A stretch of 64,000 nt of DNA from Hydrogenophaga sp. (GCF_030373225.1 NZ_JAUCZG010000006.1:87159-151158); one strand, 5' to 3'. Counted from the stretch's first letter, positions 14,858 to 28,925 are shown. A program made the numbers and translations. Notes: generated by a model from the letters alone, not told the origin.

Positions 14858-14901
14858 CCGTTCGCCCTGAGCTTGTCGAAGGACAAGCTCAGGGCGAACG
14901 G
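14858..14901. repeat. Dispersed REP-like repeat (family 1), perfect inverted pair
   Basis: A perfect 20-bp inverted repeat CCGTTCGCCCTGAGCTTGTC / GACAAGCTCAGGGCGAACGG with a four-base GAAG loop. It lies between the binding-protein stop and the permease start. Related copies are at 16870, 18605, 32368, 58263 and 63612. Confidence 0.9.
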
Positions 14902-18684: not shown

Positions 18685-20139
18685 ATGTCCGACATGTCCA
18701 TGCTCATCAACGGCCTCAAGGTCACCGCCGAAAAGGGCGCCACCTTCGAGCGCCGCAACCCGCTCGACGGCAGCGTGGCCACGCGCGCACCCGCCGCTTC
18801 GCCGGCCGACGCGGTGATGGCGGTGGAGGCCGCCGCCGAAGCCTTCAAGACCTGGAGCGAATCCGGCCCGAGCCTGCGCCGCGCCTTGCTGCTCAAGGCC
18901 GCCGACGCACTTGAAGCCAAGACGCCCGCATTCATCGAGGCCGTGTCGGCAGAGACCGGCGCCACCGGCATGTGGGGCGGCTTCAACGTGATGCTCGCCG
19001 CCGGCATGATCCGCGAGGCCGCCTCGCTCACCACCCAGGTGTCGGGCGAAGTGATTCCGTCCGACGTGCCCGGGTCGCTGGCCATGGGCATTCGCCAGCC
19101 GGCCGGCGTCGTGCTCGGCATCGCACCGTGGAACGCCCCCATCATCCTGGCCGTGCGTGCCATCTGCGTGCCGCTGGCGTGCGGCAACACCGTCATCCTC
19201 AAGGGCAGTGAGAACTGCCCGCGCACCCACCAGCTCATCATCGAGGCGTTCCAGGACGCGGGCTTTCCGCCCGGCGTGGTGAACTACATCACCAATGCCC
19301 CGGCCGATGCGGGCGCGGTGGTCGAAGCCATGGTGGCCCACCCGGCGGTGCGGCGCGTGAACTTCACCGGCTCCACCAAGGTCGGCAAGATCATCGCGGC
19401 CACCTGTGCCCGTTACCTCAAGCCGGTGGTGCTCGAGCTCGGCGGCAAGGCGCCGCTGGTGATCCTGGACGACGCCAACCTGGACGACGCGGTCAACGGC
19501 GCGGCCTTCGGCGCGTTCGCCAACAGCGGCCAGATCTGCATGAGCACCGAACGCATCATCGTGGACAACAAGATCGCCGACGCTTTCGTGAAGAAGTTCG
19601 CCGACAAGGCCAAGGCGCTGCCCGTGGGCGATCCGCGCAAGCCCGAGCCGGTGGTGCTCGGCTCGGTGATCGGCATGGGCACGGTCAACCACTGCAATGA
19701 ACTGATCGACGACGCGCTGGCCAAAGGCGCCAAACTGGCGTGCGGTGGCAAGTCGGACACCACCCTCATGCCCGCGACCGTGCTCGACCACGTGACGCCG
19801 GCCATGCGCATCTACCACGAAGAAACCTTTGGCCCGGTGAAGTGCGTGGTGCGCGTGAGCGGCGTGGAAGAAGCGATTGCCTGCGCCAACGACAACGAGT
19901 ACGGTCTCTCGGCCGCCGTGTTCGGCGGCGACATCGCCCGTGCCTTCAACGTGGCCCGCAAGATCGACAGCGGCATCTGCCACGTCAACGGTCCCACCGT
20001 GCACGACGAAGCGCAGATGCCGTTCGGCGGCGTCAAGGGTTCGGGCATCGGTCGGTTCGGTGGCAAGGCCGGCATCGCCGAGTTCACCGAACTGCGCTGG
20101 ATCACCTTGCAAACCACGCCCCGTCACTACCCGTTCTGA
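18685..20139 (+). CDS. NAD-dependent aldehyde dehydrogenase, salicylaldehyde/vanillin dehydrogenase-like
   Basis: From the ATG at 18685 (CAGGAGAACCCC upstream) the product is 484 aa; the 138 extra track residues cover livF and the repeat. It is an ALDH-fold enzyme with the cofactor segment GIAPWNAPIIL, LELGGKAPLVILDDA (general-base Glu), nucleophile Cys in SGQICMSTERI, and EETFGPV. It resembles NahF-type salicylaldehyde dehydrogenases along most of its length, including the YPF C-terminus. It oxidises an aromatic or short aldehyde to the acid. Transcribed with the ABC transporter, it may act on the imported compound or its product. Confidence 0.88.
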   Translation: MSDMSMLINGLKVTAEKGATFERRNPLDGSVATRAPAASPADAVMAVEAAAEAFKTWSESGPSLRRALLLKAADALEAKTPAFIEAVSAETGATGMWGGFNVMLAAGMIREAASLTTQVSGEVIPSDVPGSLAMGIRQPAGVVLGIAPWNAPIILAVRAICVPLACGNTVILKGSENCPRTHQLIIEAFQDAGFPPGVVNYITNAPADAGAVVEAMVAHPAVRRVNFTGSTKVGKIIAATCARYLKPVVLELGGKAPLVILDDANLDDAVNGAAFGAFANSGQICMSTERIIVDNKIADAFVKKFADKAKALPVGDPRKPEPVVLGSVIGMGTVNHCNELIDDALAKGAKLACGGKSDTTLMPATVLDHVTPAMRIYHEETFGPVKCVVRVSGVEEAIACANDNEYGLSAAVFGGDIARAFNVARKIDSGICHVNGPTVHDEAQMPFGGVKGSGIGRFGGKAGIAEFTELRWITLQTTPRHYPF

Positions 20140-20195
20140 AGCCGGCAGCCGGCTTGAAGGGCACGGGTGTCGATGCCCGTTCAAGCCTCGCTTTT
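20139..20195 (+). terminator. Hairpins after the aldehyde dehydrogenase, possible terminator
   Basis: AAGCCGGCAGCCGGCTT at the stop codon is followed by a second stem CTTGAA(G)GGCA ... TGCC(CG)TTCAAG (20153-20185) and a short T-run (CTTTTG). There is no strong U-tract, so termination is uncertain. Confidence 0.35.
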
Positions 20196-20353
20196 GAACC
20201 ACTCGGCACCCTTCGCCGACTGAAATAGTACCCAGGGAGAATTCATCGGACAGACCTGAATAACTAATCTTTGCAGTGGCGCCGGTCAGACCTGTCCGGC
20301 CTTCTGCGTGGCCTCTGGCACGCGTGTCCCACCCCCCCCGCGAGTCCATTGCC

Positions 20354-21802
20354 ATGCCACTGCCCGGTCTGTCCCGTTGCGCCTTCGTCGTGCTGGGCGC
20401 AACGCTCCTGCCTGCCACCTCCGTGGCCAGGGATCTCCTTCCCGTTTCCGCCGGTGCCACACAGCCGGCGCCTGCCGACGGCAGCCCCACCGAGCCGGAC
20501 CGCCGGCCAGGGCGCACCCCCTCGGCCGCTGCGTCTGTGCAAGCCGGCGGCCTGACGCTCAACGAACAGGGGGCCAGCTACCGCAGCGGGTCCAGCCGCG
20601 AGCGCCTGCAGTTGCGCCTGGGGGCGAACACCGGCGTGGACGCCGGGGCTTCGGTGGGCGTCGACTACGCCAGGCTGCTGAATGATCGTTGGGCACTCGG
20701 CGTCAACGCCAGCGCCGGTGCCCGCCGCGCGCAAGACCTCATGTTCAACGGCCTGTACTCGCCCGGGGCCGATCTGCACATCGGACTCTCGCTGGGATGG
20801 TTGCGCAGCACCGACAGCTACCGTTTCCACTCCGGTTCCGACGAGGTCACGGTCAACCAGGGCAGTGCCTTGCTGCGCGCAAGAAAACAGTTCGACCGTG
20901 GTTCGCTGCTCACGCACGTGAGCGCCAGCGCCTACCTCGCGCAGGCCCGCAAGCCCGATGTGGCGGATCGGGTCATGACCGAGGAAACCGCCACCCTGAT
21001 CCGCTTCCTGGTCGACCCGCGCGAGATATCGCCGGGCCGCCTGCAAGGGTTTTCTCTGGGCCTGGGCATGGCGCCCTGGCCCAACGGTGACATCCGGATC
21101 GGGCTCGGCAGCGAACGCCTGCTGCACCGGTTTCTCGACGGCTCCACAGCCGCACAGCGCCGCCTGAGCGCCAGCCTCGATGTCCGTCACACGCTGCCCG
21201 GCTGCTGGCAAGTGGAGGGCAGCGTCGCATCGGGGGTGGCCAGCAACCGCTTCAGCCTGGGTGTGAGAAAAGGCCCGTGGATGCTGGCCGCGTCGCGCGA
21301 CGCCAGCCGCCAGGCCCAGTCCAGCCAGACCCGGCTGGTCGCCGGCCTCAACCTGCCGCTGGGCCAGGCGGCGCCGGTCTGCCGGTCTGCCGCGGGTGGC
21401 TCGTTGCCGGCGCTGCAGCGGCTCGACGAGGTCTTCACCCGCCCGAGCCAGCTGCCCACCCGTGCAATGGCCCGGGTCGACCCGACCGCCCGTCCCTCCC
21501 TGCTGGCCAGTCTCGACAAAAGCGGTCTGGCCGGCGCCACCGCCACCGCCACGCCCGAGGCCCTGATCCTGAGCCTGGTCGATCCGGCGATCGCCGTGGC
21601 CGACCTGTTCATCAATGGACTGCAGGTGGCCAACGTCGGAGCCAACGGACAGCCATTGCTGTGGGTGCAGGGCACTTCCCTGTACATCGGCGTGGGCCGC
21701 CTGCCCGGCATCGCCGTGGGTCAGACGGTCCCTGTGGAAGCCGTCGTTTTGCTCGCTGGTGGCGGTCTTGCCCTGGTGTCCTTCAACGTCACCGGGAACT
21801 GA
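20354..21802 (+). CDS. Predicted outer-membrane beta-barrel protein of the Ig-repeat locus
   Basis: From the ATG at 20354 the product is 482 aa. A signal peptide (LSRCAFVVLGATLLPATSVA) is followed by a Pro/Ala-rich linker. About 300 residues then show alternating hydrophobic/polar strands with aromatic and Arg girdles (e.g. RWALGVNASAGARR, LHIGLSLGWLRSTDSYRF), as in a transmembrane barrel. The last ~90 residues look like a separate small beta domain (LILSLVDPAIAVADLFINGLQVANVG...). I do not recognise a named family; it is not clearly an intimin, TpsB or usher. Only three bases separate it from the giant Ig-repeat gene, so they are surely co-transcribed. Role inferred: export, anchoring or display of that protein. 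Confidence 0.6.
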   Translation: MPLPGLSRCAFVVLGATLLPATSVARDLLPVSAGATQPAPADGSPTEPDRRPGRTPSAAASVQAGGLTLNEQGASYRSGSSRERLQLRLGANTGVDAGASVGVDYARLLNDRWALGVNASAGARRAQDLMFNGLYSPGADLHIGLSLGWLRSTDSYRFHSGSDEVTVNQGSALLRARKQFDRGSLLTHVSASAYLAQARKPDVADRVMTEETATLIRFLVDPREISPGRLQGFSLGLGMAPWPNGDIRIGLGSERLLHRFLDGSTAAQRRLSASLDVRHTLPGCWQVEGSVASGVASNRFSLGVRKGPWMLAASRDASRQAQSSQTRLVAGLNLPLGQAAPVCRSAAGGSLPALQRLDEVFTRPSQLPTRAMARVDPTARPSLLASLDKSGLAGATATATPEALILSLVDPAIAVADLFINGLQVANVGANGQPLLWVQGTSLYIGVGRLPGIAVGQTVPVEAVVLLAGGGLALVSFNVTGN

Positions 21803-21805
21803 GCC

Positions 21806-24800
21806 ATGCAAGCCTCCCCTTTGTCCTCGCGGATGGGCCGCGCCTTCCTGACCCACCTGGCCTCCTGGCTGCCACGACCGCGTCGGTTGCTGGTGCTGCT
21901 GCTCCTGTGCACGCCACTGGCATGGGCGTCGGTGAGCATCACCGGAATGGTCATCACCACCCTGCAGCAGATCTCGTTTGCGCAGGACAGTGTGGACCTG
22001 GTGGTGAACCAGACCGCCACACAGACGGCCACCAGCCGCTACAGCCGGGGCCCCGTGACCTATGTCAGCAGCCATCCCGCCGTGGCCGAGGTGGACGCAC
22101 GCAGCGGCGCCGTCACCGCGCTGCAGGTCGGGTCCGCCACGATCACCGCCACGCAGGCGCCCGCCGCTCCCTATCCGTCGGCCAGCGCCCGTTACACCGT
22201 GCGGGTGTCGGGGCAGGCCCCCGTCTTCAATCCCTGGGCGTTGGCGCCCGTGGTGTTCGGCACGCCATCGTTCAACCTGGCGCCACCCACATCGAACAGC
22301 CAGGGCGCCATCACCTACAGCAGCGAGAACCCGGCCGTGGCCGACGTCACGCCGCAAGGAATGGTCGAGGTGAAGGGCGTTGGAAGAACCGGAATCGTGG
22401 CGCAGCAGGCCGCGCAGGGTGGTTTCGCGGCCGCCAGCACCCGGGCCGAACTGGAGGTTCTTCCGGTCGTCCCGGTGCTCACCTGGAGCGATCAGATGGT
22501 GACCCTGGGGACCACCATCACCCTGCAGCCACCCGCCAGCCAGACCGGGCTCACCCGGCCGTTCACCTACACCGTGGCAGACAGCCTGCTGGCCGACGTG
22601 ACAGCCAACCAGATCACTGGCCGGGGTGTGGGCACGACCCGCATCCGTGCGCAGGTCGAGGCCGGTGGCAACCATGCCGAAGCCAGCGTGGAAGCGGTGC
22701 TCACCGTGCGCGCCGCAGACTTCTTCATCACCGGCTTCAACGACATCGTGCGCACCTTCGATGCGGTGGACAGCGCCGCCAATGCGTTCGATCTGCCCGA
22801 CCTGGACAAGCCCTCCGGCAGCTCCGCCGGTTTCAGCTTCACCAGTTCCGACCCGTCGGTGGCCACCGTTGCGGGCCAGCGCGTGACCGTGCTCGGGGTG
22901 GGCAGCACCACGCTGACGGCAACACTGTCTGCCGATCCGCTGCGCCACGGGCCCGCCACGGCCAGCGTCCGCCTGCAGGTGCTGCCGGCGCTGCCGCTGG
23001 TCACCTTCGCCCCGATCGCCAAGGCGGTGGGTGATGCGGCATTCGTGCCGGCTTTCATCAGCAACAGTGGGGGCGCGGTGACCTTCTCGCTGGTCAATCC
23101 CGAGCCGCCCGATCTGGCCACGCTGGCCAGCGACGGCAGCATCACCCCCGTCAAGCCGGGCACCGCCACGCTGATGGCCACACAGGTCGAGGCGGGCCAC
23201 TTTGCCGCCAGCACCCACACCACGACGCTGACCATCACCGCCCAGCCTCTCGTTGCCAACACGCTGGCACTGGCACCGTTCGAAAAACTCGCGGTGGACA
23301 CCCCCTTTGTCCCCGCCTGGACCCTTCGAAACAGCACGGCCGAGCCGATTGTCGTGACCAGCAGCAACAGCGCGGTGGCAACGGTCGGCAACGACGCGCA
23401 GACCGTCACGCTCACCGGCCTGGCGGGCACCAGCCTGATCACGCTCACCCAGCAGGCCACGCCCACGCACGCCGGTGCATCGGTGAGCGCCCTGATGACC
23501 GTGCGCCAGCAGCCGGCCACGGCAGCGTCGTTGACGCTGTCGGACATGTCCAGGGTCTTTGGCGATGCCGCCTTCACGCCGCAGGTCGGCACCTCCAGCG
23601 ATGGGGCGGTCAGCTTCAGCAGCGGCAACGAAGCGGTCGCCGTCGTCGACAGCACGGGGCGCTTCATCCGCATCGTCGGGGCCGGCCGCGCCAGCATCAC
23701 CGCACGCGTGGCATCGACCGCCCGGTTCCAGGGCGCAGAGGCCACCGCCACACTCACCGTGAACCCGCGCGACCCGGGCCTGCAGGTCCGGGATGTCTAC
23801 CGACAACTTGCCATGGGCCCCTTTGATCTTGCCGTGGAAAAGCGTGGCAATGGTGTGGTCACGGTGACCAGCAGCAATGCCGCCGTGGCGACCGTCGGAG
23901 GAGCGCAAGGCCTGACCATCACGCCGCTGAGCCCGGGACAGACCACGGTCACCGTGACGGTCGCGGAGGATGCCAACCACACGGCGTCCAGCGCCAGCGC
24001 GAGGGTCCACATCACGGCAGAGCAAGCCTCGTTGCGTTGGTCGGTCCCGCCGCAAATCGTCTTTGATGCGGCCGCTCCGACGCTGACGTTGCCGGTGCTG
24101 GAGTCCAACAACCGCTCGGGTGCCATCAGCTACAGCAGCAGCGACACCAGCGTGGCCACCCTCGTCGGCAACACGCTGACCCTCACCGGCAGGGCCGGCA
24201 GCGTGACGCTGACTGCCACACAGGCCCCGGGAGACGGCTATGTCGAGTCACGGATCAGTGCCAACGTGAACGTGGTGCTTTCCGCACCGACCACCATCGA
24301 ACCTGTGGCACCCACACTGGTGGTCGACGCGCTGATCGAGCGTTCGCTGGCGCAGGGCGCATTCCGCCCGGCCATCCAGACCAACAGCCCGGGTGCCATC
24401 ACCCTGAGCGTTCTGTACGGTCCGGTGACCCTGGGTGCCGACGGCCGCACACTGACACCCACCGCGTCCGGTGAAGCCGCTGTCAAGGTGGTCGTGGCGG
24501 CCACCGCTGCCTTCACCACCGCCGAGAGGACCATCGTCATCAAACTGTCGGCCGGCGCGCCGGTGATCGAGTTTGCGCCCATGACGCGCAACTTTGACGA
24601 TGCCGACTTGACGTTCGACATCCCGACACCGCTCTCGAACAGTCCGGGTGCGTTCACCTACATCAGTCTCGATCCTGGCGTGGCCGAAATCGTCAGCGGC
24701 ACACAGATCAAGGTCAAACGCGCCGGAACCGCCGTCATCCGGGCGGTGCAGGCCGCGGCCTTTCCGTACGAGTCTGGGCAGGCCGACACCACGCTGACCG

Positions 24801-27565
24801 TGCATGCGCAGCCCAACACCCTGAGCTTCGGCGCCCGGCGGGCCATCACCCGCAGCACCAGCGACCTGCCGTTCGCCTTGCGTGCCACGTCGAACAGCCC
24901 GACGACCATCGAGTACCTCTCGACCAACGAGGCGGTGGCCACCATCGATGCCAACGGCGTGGTCACGCTCCAGGGTGCGGCGGGCAGCACGGTCATCGTG
25001 GCCACGCAGGTCACGGGCTGGACCCAGTACGCCCCCGGTCGCGCCGAGATCGCTCTCACCGTGACACCACCCGAGGCCACGGGCCTGACGCTGTTCGACT
25101 TCACGGTGCCGGTCGATCGGGGCACGGTGCTCCCGCCCTACACCACGCTCAGCAGCCGCCCGGTGGTGGTCGAGGTGGACAACGCCCTGGTGGCCACGGT
25201 GGAGCCCGATGGCCAGACCCTGCGCCTGCTCTCGGTCGGCACGGCCGGGGTCACGGTGAAGCACCCCGCCACCGACACCCAGGCCGAGGTGGCCGTGCGT
25301 GCCGTGTTGACCGTCGGACCCGCCACACCGGTGATGTCGGGCTTGCCCACCGCCATCGAGCGCACCTGGACCGGCACCAGCACAGCCATCACGCTGTCAC
25401 CCCTGTCGCCCAGCAACGGTGAGTTCAGACTGAGCAGCGACGCGCCCGGCGTGGCGCAGGTCAACGGGCTCACCGTCACGCTGGTGGGGCCCGGCACCGC
25501 CCGCCTGACGCTGACCCAGGGGCCGGACGCTTCGTGGTCGGGCGGCAGTGTCGTCATCCCGGTGACGGTGAATCAGGCGCTTGCTTCACTCGACAACATG
25601 ACCCGCAGCCATGGCGACCCTGGTTTCGAGCTGCCCGCCATGCTGGGCGGCGTGTCGGTCAGCTACACCAGTGACAACCCTGCGGTGGCGCTCATCGGCG
25701 GCGCCGACAGCCGCACCGTGAGCCTGACCGGCGTGGGCACGACCGTGCTGACAGCACGCAGCGGTGCCAATGGGGTGGTGGCCTCGGCCGTGCTGACCGT
25801 TCAAGCCGGACTGCCCCGCTTGATCCTGGCCGACACGGTGCTGCCCTCCACAACCCTGGCGACCACCCTCAGGGCCACGTCGAGCAGCACGGGCGCCATC
25901 CGCTATGCCGTCACCGGCGGCGCCACCGGCATCGTTCGGCTCGACGCACAGGGCATGCTGCTGGTCCAGGGCACGGGCACCGTGCAGGTGACCGCCACCC
26001 AGGCGCCCGATGCCAACCACCTCCAGGCCAGCGTGGTGGCCAGCATCACCATCGCAGCGGGGGATCCGGGCTTTGTCGTGACCTCGGCGCCTGCCGCGCC
26101 TGTCCTGCAGGGCGGCACCTTCGAGATCCGGTACCGGGCCAACAGCCTGGCCGGAGCCGGTGACGTCGAGCCCATCCTTCTGGCCTTCCAGGGTTCGGAC
26201 GTCAGCCTCAGCAACCACATCACGCTGATCTCCCAGTCGATACCCACCCGGGTGGATGAAGACGGTGTCATGGTCTTCAGGATGGCCATCGATGCACCGG
26301 TGGGAGCGGGGCACCGCATTGGCTTCTCTTTCCGGTCGACCGACCCCGGATTCAACACCCTGGTGGCCAACAGTCCTCCGGTCGCCAGGAACATCGAGGT
26401 CGCTGCCGTGGACCAGCAGTACAACCTGGGCTTGCCGTTCACGCTGGACTTCAACATCGAGAACACGGTGGTGGTCCCGTCTGTTCGTGACAGCCGCGGC
26501 AACCTCGCGCCCTTGGTCAGTTGCAACCTCAGGTCCAGCAACCCGGCCGTGCTGCGCGAGGATTACTCCAACGACAACCCTCACCAGGGCTGGCGCACCG
26601 TGGGGGTGGGAGAGGCCACCTTGTCCTGCTCGAACCATGCCGGCGTGCGCGGCGTGACCGTGACCGTTCTGCCGGGCGATCCGAAGCTGCGCGGCTTCGA
26701 GTCCATGAGCCTGAGCCTGGATGCGCCGACGCGCCCCATCGTGGAGCCGGTTTCCCTCAACACCACGGGAGCCTGGACCTACGAGATCCTCAACAGCCAG
26801 AGCGCGACCGGCGCGCTCGTCGCGGTGATCGAAAACGGGGCGGTGGTGGCCAGGGCGCCCGGCAGCGCCGTGCTGCGCGCCAGGCAGGCGGCTGCGGGGG
26901 CGTACCGCGCGGCACATGTCGACGCACTCATCAGCGTGTCGCCTTCGGTGCTCACGGGCTTCCAGGATGTCACCATGACCTTTGGCGACGCCGATTTCCG
27001 CATGCCGCTGCCCGGCAGCAGCGACACCACAACACCGTTTGTGCTGACCAGCAGCAACCCCGATGTGGCCACCATTTCCGACCTCAACCGGGTGAGCATC
27101 CGGTCAGCGGGCACGGCCATCATCACGGCGACGCAGGGCCAGTCCCGGCCCGTCACCGCCGTGCTCACCGTGCGCAAGGCGGTTCCCCGGCTGGTGTTGC
27201 GGGTGAAGCCCTGGGTCGAGTTCGAGCAGGAAACCTGTCCGACGCTCCCCCCGACCCTGATCACCTGGCCTTTGCCCAACCAGACCACCCTGGCCGGTGT
27301 GAGCCTTGTCAGCGACAGCGATGGCGCCGTCCAGTACGGATCTTCCGGTGGGTTTTTCTGGAACTGGAACCGGTCTCAGCCCACGCCGGGCAACGTCGGG
27401 CAACTGGCGCTGGCGGTTCCCGACCAGAGCGGGCGCTCGCCGCGCCTGACCCACCGGATCTGGGTGACCCAGGCCGAGTCTGCCAACCACCTGTCGGCCA
27501 CCAGTGAAGCCTTCGAGTTCATGGTGTCCGACAGCCTCCCCGCCACCGCGCCCTGCTCCCGGTAG
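21806..27565 (+). CDS. Giant exported protein of about 20 bacterial Ig-like (Big/MBG-type) repeats
   Basis: The product is 1919 aa. The N-terminus has Arg-rich then hydrophobic sequence ([16 protein letters not shown]), a signal peptide. The rest is a run of ~80-100-residue beta repeats with recurring motifs: an FGDAxF-like start, xSSNxAVATV in the middle, GxxTITATQ near the end and LTVxxx as closing strand. I count about 20 units; units around residues 1430-1560 are atypical. The C-terminal ~130 residues differ and contain two cysteines (EQETCPTL and the terminal APCSR). No LPXTG, lipobox, autotransporter barrel or enzyme motif is visible. It is likely a stalk-like adhesin or matrix protein held by the preceding barrel. 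The antisense ORF 20264..24055 is a shadow. Confidence 0.75.
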
Positions 27566-27574
27566 CGGTCCAAT

Positions 27575-27602
27575 GAACCAGGGGCATGGCAGCCCCTGGT
27601 TC
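27575..27602 (+). terminator. Hairpin after the Ig-repeat gene
   Basis: A perfect 11-bp stem GAACCAGGGGC / GCCCCTGGTTC with loop ATGGCA, ten bases after the stop. It has no U-tract, so it may be a terminator or a 3' stability element. It also lies in the leader of proA. Confidence 0.55.
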
Positions 27603-27644
27603 GTGCCGGGTGCAGCGGGGCGACGGCTCTGCGAAAATCGCGCG

Positions 27645-28925
27645 ATGAACGCGACCAACACCACCGAACTCATGCACACCCTGGGCCAGCAGGCCAAAGC
27701 GGCCTCGGCGCTCATGGCCCAGGCCAGTGCGGCCACCAAGCAGCGCGCCTTGCTGGGTCTGGCTTCCCTGCTGCGCGCCAACGTTGACGCCCTGCAACAG
27801 GACAATGCCCGGGACCTCGACCGTGCCCGTGCCGCCGGCCTGGCCGAGCCGATGGTGGATCGTCTGAAGCTCACGCCGAAGGTGATCGAGACCTGCGCCC
27901 AGGGTTGCGAACAGCTCGCGGCCATGCCCGAGATCATTGGCGAGATCACCGGCATGAAGCAGATGCCCAGCGGCATCCGGGTCGGACAGATGCGGGTGCC
28001 CCTCGGCGTGTTCGGCATGATCTACGAGAGCCGCCCCAACGTGACCATCGAGGCCGCCTCGTTGTCCATCAAGAGCGGCAACGCGGCCATCCTGCGCGGC
28101 GGCTCCGAGGCGATCGAGTCCAACCGGACCCTGGCCGCACTGGTGCAACGCGCCATGGTCGATGCCGGCCTGCCCGCCGACGGCGTTCAGCTCGTGCCCA
28201 CCACCGACCGCGCTGCCGTGGGCCAGCTCATCACCATGCCGCAGTACGTGGACGTGATCATTCCGCGCGGCGGCAAGGGGTTGATCGAGCGCATCAGCGC
28301 CGAAGCCAGGGTGCCGGTCATCAAACACCTCGATGGCAACTGCCACACCTACGTGGACGACCCCTGCGACCTGTCCATGGCGGTGACCGTGGCCGACAAC
28401 GCCAAGACCCAGAAATACAGCCCCTGCAACGCCACCGAAAGCCTGCTCGTGGCGCGTGGCGTGGCGGCCGGCTTCCTGCCGAAGATCGGCGCCATCTTTG
28501 CGGCCAAGGGCGTGGAAATGCGCTGCTGCCCCGAAAGCCGGGCGATGCTCGCGACCGTGCCGGGTGCGAACCTCAAGGAGGCGACCGAGGCCGACTGGTC
28601 CGAGGAGTACCTGGCTCCTGTCATCAGCATCAAGCTGGTCGAGGGTGTGGACGAGGCCATCGCCCACATCAACCGCTACAGCAGCCACCACACCGACGCC
28701 ATCCTCACCACCGACCACCGGCATGCGCAGCGGTTTTTGCGTGAGGTTGATTCGGCAAGCGTCATGGTGAATGCGAGCACCCGCTTCGCAGATGGGTTCG
28801 AGTTCGGCCTGGGCGCTGAAATCGGCATTTCGACCGACAAGTTCCACGCGCGCGGGCCGGTCGGTGTCGAGGGCCTGACCTCGCTGAAGTACGTGGTGCT
28901 GGGCGAGGGCGAGGTGCGGGGCTGA
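27645..28925 (+). CDS. proA: Glutamate-5-semialdehyde dehydrogenase (gamma-glutamyl phosphate reductase)
   Basis: The product is 426 aa from the ATG at 27645; the track extension covers the hairpin and the end of the previous gene. It catalyses the NADPH-dependent second step of proline synthesis. Family motifs: [30 protein letters not shown], catalytic Cys in [12 protein letters not shown], and [20 protein letters not shown]. Length is standard. In related genomes it usually follows holA directly, so its separation here marks the right edge of the accessory block. Confidence 0.96.

Follow-up and report, generated by a model that had tools for sequence, protein, structure and literature searches.

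Our analysis of a 64,000-nt stretch of Hydrogenophaga DNA (hereafter, the window) found a predicted outer-membrane barrel protein, P0001, encoded next to a separate giant rod of Ig-like repeats, P0002, and we consider it somewhat probable that the two form a dedicated surface-display module, with a translocator and anchor that resembles that of ZirTS in its working, a barrel that is not homologous to it, and the Ig rod. The barrel and Ig genes share a history and are paired beyond chance. Besides this pairing, co-occurrence and shared history, the observations behind the display reading are the layout of the proteins, their cysteine patterns and, in a structural model, the Ig-like fold of the barrel protein's last domain. 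Export of the rod by the barrel would follow by analogy with known systems, and we infer a role in adhesion for the pair. The barrel has no name in databases, and the rod, from one close relative to the next, ranges from ~4 to 18 units.

The window comes from a Hydrogenophaga genome of 4.0 Mb. Between its aldehyde dehydrogenase gene (ending at 20139) and proA (starting at ~27645) lie exactly two genes, both on the + strand and with the same GC content as their surroundings:

20354..21802, + strand: barrel gene P0001, an open reading frame from the ATG at 20354 to the stop at 21802 (482 aa), with an AlphaFold2 model and nine homologues
21806..27565, + strand: gene for the Ig-repeat protein P0002, an open reading frame of 1919 aa, exported, with a Big_2 match and 18 complete units
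27573..27604, + strand: 13-bp perfect stem-loop 3' of the Ig gene, a possible transcript end, with no T run (the region folds with a z-score of -2.9)

The junction between the genes reads TGA-GCC-ATG, that is, a gap of 3 nt with the reading frame shared. The first-pass annotation had described a barrel with its own signal peptide, followed after three bases by a 1919-residue exported protein, and the open reading frames confirm this, with the signals judged by eye. A terminator scan found no terminator behind P0002.

The barrel profile was positive in 9 of 67 Hydrogenophaga genomes, and a profile of the partner's N-terminus picked out the same nine, the other 58 having neither protein. In the rest of the family, full-strength matches to either protein were confined to one genome of a sister genus (G199), where both are present and adjacent. 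An adjacent-pair search in other genomes had been proposed at first pass; it gave ten pairs, all adjacent (gaps of 3, 1, 1, 1, -4, 3, 4, -4, 70 and 1 nt, so that nine of the ten overlap or lie no more than 4 nt apart), and no homologues occurring apart were seen among the 67 genomes of the genus and the rest of the family. The expectation that barrel and rod are two polypeptides instead of one was likewise borne out, as they are separate genes at all ten loci. Distances between the barrels correlated with those between the partner N-termini (r = 0.90, permutation p = 2e-4), although genomes of one genus share history, and both this test and the co-occurrence test overstate significance.

The pairs occupy at least five genomic settings. 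In one genome with a pair of its own elsewhere (G009, L082), the aldehyde dehydrogenase and proA orthologues lie 33 nt apart and the site between them is empty. At the same junction in another genome (G017, L081) we saw a different gene in reverse orientation, apparently rhodanese-like as judged by eye. Accordingly, the pair moves or is lost as a two-gene unit, and the junction (window positions 20139-20354 and 27565-27645) seems, from these sequence comparisons, to be a variable site within the genus. On reading, the weak partner matches in other genera (a classical autotransporter, lipoproteins and an IPTL-CTERM protein) proved to be unrelated Big_2 proteins, with no such barrel upstream. 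Separately, a locus in the same bacterial family (L056:7304-11614) encodes a classical autotransporter-like protein that contains an Ig-type region and whose C-terminal barrel ends in a typical aromatic residue.

The barrel protein is made up of the following parts:

20354..20431, + strand: signal peptide, residues ~1-26, judged by eye from the sequence
20600..21349, + strand: beta-barrel domain, residues ~83-332, from DSSP of the AlphaFold2 model
21203..21205, + strand: Cys284, in a probable periplasmic turn (LPGC), invariant in 10/10
21350..21496, + strand: linker, residues 333-381, with a helix at 352-361, from model and alignment
21380..21382, + strand: Cys343, in the post-barrel linker, invariant in 10/10
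21497..21796, + strand: C-terminal Ig-like beta-sandwich domain, from a model of the domain alone and Foldseek

The barrel expected at first pass holds in the AlphaFold2 model, which was made from an eight-sequence alignment and has a mean pLDDT of 76, with the barrel blocks mostly at 80-95; all alignments behind the models and profiles are shallow, at 8-10 sequences. DSSP assigned 16 strands between residues 73 and 332 of the model. On the assumption that the long loops are extracellular and that the short turns lie in the periplasm, we infer 14 membrane strands and assign the rest to an N-terminal strand and a hairpin within a loop, an arrangement that would place both ends of the barrel on the periplasmic side. 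Cys284 and Cys343 are the sole two cysteines outside the signal peptide and occupy identical columns in all ten barrel proteins, and they probably form a disulfide that ties the start of the linker to the periplasmic turn.

The linker holds ten invariant residues (R356, L357, R363, P364, L367, P368, A373, V375, D376 and P381), and its residues 361-380 are among the best conserved stretches of the protein. In the full-length model the linker reaches a pLDDT of 78-86, compared with 43-62 when modelled without the barrel, in which case its helix and short strand disappear. In the models, then, it is the barrel that gives the linker its order, which fits a plug or a path through the lumen; the reading that places the linker in the pore is based on the gain in pLDDT and not on seen contacts. 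The C-terminal beta domain (residues ~396-481) has a pLDDT of ~90 when modelled alone and turns out, as modelled, to have an Ig-like fold, its best Foldseek matches being CopC, LAG3 and SiiE (probability near 1, no E-value below 0.001). The extra ~90-residue beta domain noticed at first pass can accordingly be recognised in the model, as can the supposed likeness to an inverse autotransporter, with barrel, helix, linker and Ig-like domain all within P0001. This domain might, as proposed at first pass, dock the partner; no homology was found between it and the partner's Ig units.

In the rod protein, we distinguished five segments:

21806..21931, + strand: long signal peptide, residues ~1-42, judged by eye
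21932..22471, + strand: first two Ig units, the partner's best conserved part by alignment and a candidate docking end
22505..25570, + strand: expanded array, units 3-14, mostly missing (as alignment gaps) in the relatives of 452-993 aa
26054..26716, + strand: non-standard segment, residues 1417-1637, without a unit match, containing Cys1573 and Cys1608
27188..27562, + strand: C-terminal module, residues ~1795-1919, with the cysteine pair C1811/C1917

Pfam Big_2 matched P0002 with an E-value of 1.2e-31, and a profile built from the protein's own units picked up 18 complete copies, one per ~85 residues, plus a fragment at the C-terminal end. The first-pass description of P0002 as almost entirely Ig went too far, since neither residues 1417-1637 nor the final 125 residues consist of standard units, while its remark on the missing anchor stands: no C-terminal membrane anchor is visible in P0002, and no lipobox was seen by eye at the end of its signal peptide. 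Relatives have 4 to 8 units in 452 to 993 residues, and full-length partners span 522 to 1919 aa. P0002 owes its size to ~1000 extra residues (units 3-14) between conserved N- and C-terminal parts. The C-terminal module has its cysteine pair in all nine full-length partners, the two cysteines being 85-116 residues apart and the last of them preceding the C-terminus by 2 or 5 residues. The lectin tip of intimin also contains a disulfide whose last cysteine lies equally near the C-terminus, a resemblance to the end of P0002 and not a test of it. At one locus (L011:11685-13040), the partner next to an intact barrel gene has just 452 aa and lacks the C-terminal cysteine module; this partner may be truncated, or may reflect a sequencing or assembly error.

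Secretion of the Salmonella protein ZirS, whose gene lies 26 bp downstream of zirT, needs ZirT, a barrel of the intimin type that carries an Ig passenger of its own (PMC2270342), and for SinH/SinI and for IatB and its neighbour a similar pairing of such a barrel with a separately encoded exported protein has been proposed (PMC6714894). Because of this ZirT/ZirS precedent and the inverse-autotransporter-like layout of the pair, we favour the reading in which the Ig rod is translocated by the barrel and stays held by it. Both proteins would reach the periplasm via Sec, and the P0001 barrel would be inserted in the outer membrane with both of its ends toward the periplasm. A Cys284-Cys343 disulfide would fasten the proximal end of the linker at the periplasmic mouth; the linker and its conserved helix would presumably occupy the pore, and the small Ig-like domain would lie outside. 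The rod would be guided out through or beside the barrel, perhaps with its conserved N-terminal units first; its N-terminal end would remain held at the barrel by a putative binding contact, and its disulfide-closed C-terminal module would be the distal tip. If the barrel does export the rod, then the pair keeps apart what intimin-like proteins fuse, and the start of transport, the pulling of the Ig chain and its holding become separately testable.

The pair most likely works like ZirTS, as far as analogy can tell, yet by the sequence of its barrel it is not a member of that group. It shares with ZirTS(U) adjacent barrel and exoprotein genes, Sec signals on both products (here by eye), horizontal acquisition, and a barrel protein with its own C-terminal Ig domain or domains. 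At the same time, the ZirT barrel is of the intimin type (IAT) while P0001, by profile, is not; neither PMC2270342 nor PMC6714894 describes ZirS as a long Ig rod, while the partner here has from 4 to 18 units of the Big_2 type plus a cysteine pair at its C-terminal end; and the genes here overlap or nearly so. The first-pass annotation had suggested that a two-gene display system of this kind could be undescribed, which is not borne out: ZirTS(U) precedes it, as do the proposed pairings of SinH/SinI and of IatB and its neighbour (PMC2270342, PMC6714894). Together with ZirTS, the present pair, if export is true, would suggest that two-gene inverse-autotransporter-like secretion arose more than once.

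Alternatively, the barrel could be an anchor or receptor only, with the Ig protein folding in the periplasm, leaving by type II secretion and then being captured at the surface by the Ig-like domain of the barrel protein. That the partner has disulfide-bearing modules points to periplasmic folding before such export, and InvL offers a precedent, this invasin-like Ig adhesin lacking a barrel and needing type II secretion (PMC9245377). InvL resembles P0002 as an Ig-repeat, adhesin-like protein with no barrel in the same chain, but it is a lipoprotein for which no dedicated barrel partner is described (PMC9245377), whereas P0002 has a barrel partner and, by eye, no lipobox. GspD scored above its curated cut-off in all ten pair genomes; this shows a type II system to be present, as would be necessary but not sufficient, and the count covers pair genomes alone, so it lends no specific support to that route. 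Intimin-type translocators, for their part, can pass a disulfide-bearing tip domain, which counts against this alternative, and the translational coupling of barrel and partner suits a translocator and its substrate better than a catcher for type II secretion. On balance we think type II export with capture by the barrel unlikely.

We also considered whether the pair is a true inverse autotransporter that has been split in two and has diverged, its barrel being homologous to those of ZirT and intimin beyond what sequence can recognise. In intimin, a helical turn plugs the periplasmic mouth, followed by a conserved Arg, a linker that crosses the lumen, a strand in a small exit sheet and an Ig domain (PMC13078405), and the parts of P0001 come in the same order as in intimin and YchO (barrel, helical turn, conserved Arg, linker, strand, Ig-like domain). 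P0001 is also close to YchO (464 aa) in size and layout, each consisting of a barrel that carries one small passenger domain, and by eye there are shared patterns with intimin and YchO in the linker, R-x-D-x-V...R, and in one strand pair, D-x-W-x-x-G-x-N, although the linker likeness to the intimin type, being by eye, is not counted as evidence of homology. The profile searches, on the other hand, speak against such a relationship. IAT_beta (PF11924) matched none of the ten barrel members at E-values up to 5 and was absent from 20 relatives' genomes, while the controls YeeJ and YchO gave 1e-113 and 1e-102. In hhalign, the P0001 family against an IAT profile gave a probability of 0.5%, compared with 99.9% for the control; that profile was built from three proteins, and the Pfam result weighs more. 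Moreover, the model has ~14 strands instead of 12, and Foldseek with the whole model returned only generic barrels with low TM-scores, neither intimin nor invasin appearing in the top 50. A split inverse autotransporter therefore appears quite improbable.

The differences from the inverse autotransporters of type Ve (intimin, invasin, YeeJ, YchO) extend to the stalk, which is there part of one polypeptide and here a separate protein at 10/10 loci, with only one Ig-like domain following the P0001 barrel. The units are of the Big_2 type here and of the Big_1 type there, no LysM is present here, and there is no detectable sequence relation. The likeness lies in the order of barrel, helix, conserved linker and Ig-like domain, and in an Ig stalk with a disulfide-bearing tip, P0002 ending in its cysteine-pair module. 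Two-partner secretion (type Vb, TpsB/TpsA) similarly has an outer-membrane barrel gene next to that of a very large exported partner, but Pfam found no POTRA or ShlB domain in the ten barrel proteins and no TPS domain in the partners, which matched Ig-type families and weak noise instead. An ordinary two-partner system with a true TpsB (ShlB, E 1.1e-95) is encoded elsewhere in the pair's own genome (G000:C36:44130-45077).

No Usher domain was matched in any of the ten barrels either, and TpsB, usher, IAT and Omp85 were all dropped as identities for P0001 after zero profile matches, in agreement with the first-pass impression that the barrel resembles neither TpsB nor an usher nor intimin. Neither the single sequence nor a ten-sequence profile found a family or relative of P0001 in Pfam, NCBIfam or PDB, and the protein is, at the level of sequence, not detectably related to known translocator families. 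A five-sequence barrel profile run over genome contigs found four loci, all in Hydrogenophaga. Order- and phylum-wide searches, in which few candidates were scored per genome and remote relatives may escape, gave nothing further; a lone 66-residue match (E 6e-4) was judged to be noise. A plasmid collection gave no match, a scan with YchO across viral contigs found nothing, and a literature search on this gene pair or on Hydrogenophaga adhesins returned nothing relevant. The barrel family thus seems to be undescribed and, as far as searched, confined to Hydrogenophaga and one neighbouring genus. It is possible, and we suggest it tentatively, that a barrel unrelated to IAT, Omp85/TpsB and the classical autotransporters reached the inverse-autotransporter layout independently and secretes its rod as a separate protein, which would make it a translocator family outside the type V lineages. 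If so, barrel and stalk need not be covalently joined, and the mechanism has more than one evolutionary origin.

A further alternative is that both proteins are internal, the C-terminal domain of the barrel protein and the Ig rod being periplasmic, for example as a pore with a long periplasmic scaffold. With an even number of strands the linker begins on the periplasmic side, where the probable Cys284-Cys343 disulfide would keep it; both points are consistent with this. However, 18 units of ~4 nm each give an estimated rod of ~70 nm, and such a length, which is also highly variable between relatives, is too great for a periplasmic part and could not span the periplasm in extended form; in the models, the ordering of the linker by the barrel suggests entry into the pore. 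We regard a periplasmic location of the rod as very improbable. That the barrel and Ig genes are unrelated chance neighbours can be set aside, given their full co-occurrence and adjacency in ten genomes, in at least five settings, as a lone two-gene cassette.

Finally, the window contains a short repeat, TTCGACAAGCTCAG, in nine copies with no more than two mismatches (0.34 expected), at positions 14867, 16879, 16922, 18613, 18631, 32377, 58265, 63615 and 63928. Some copies form inverted pairs, and the repeat looks like an interspersed palindromic repeat family.
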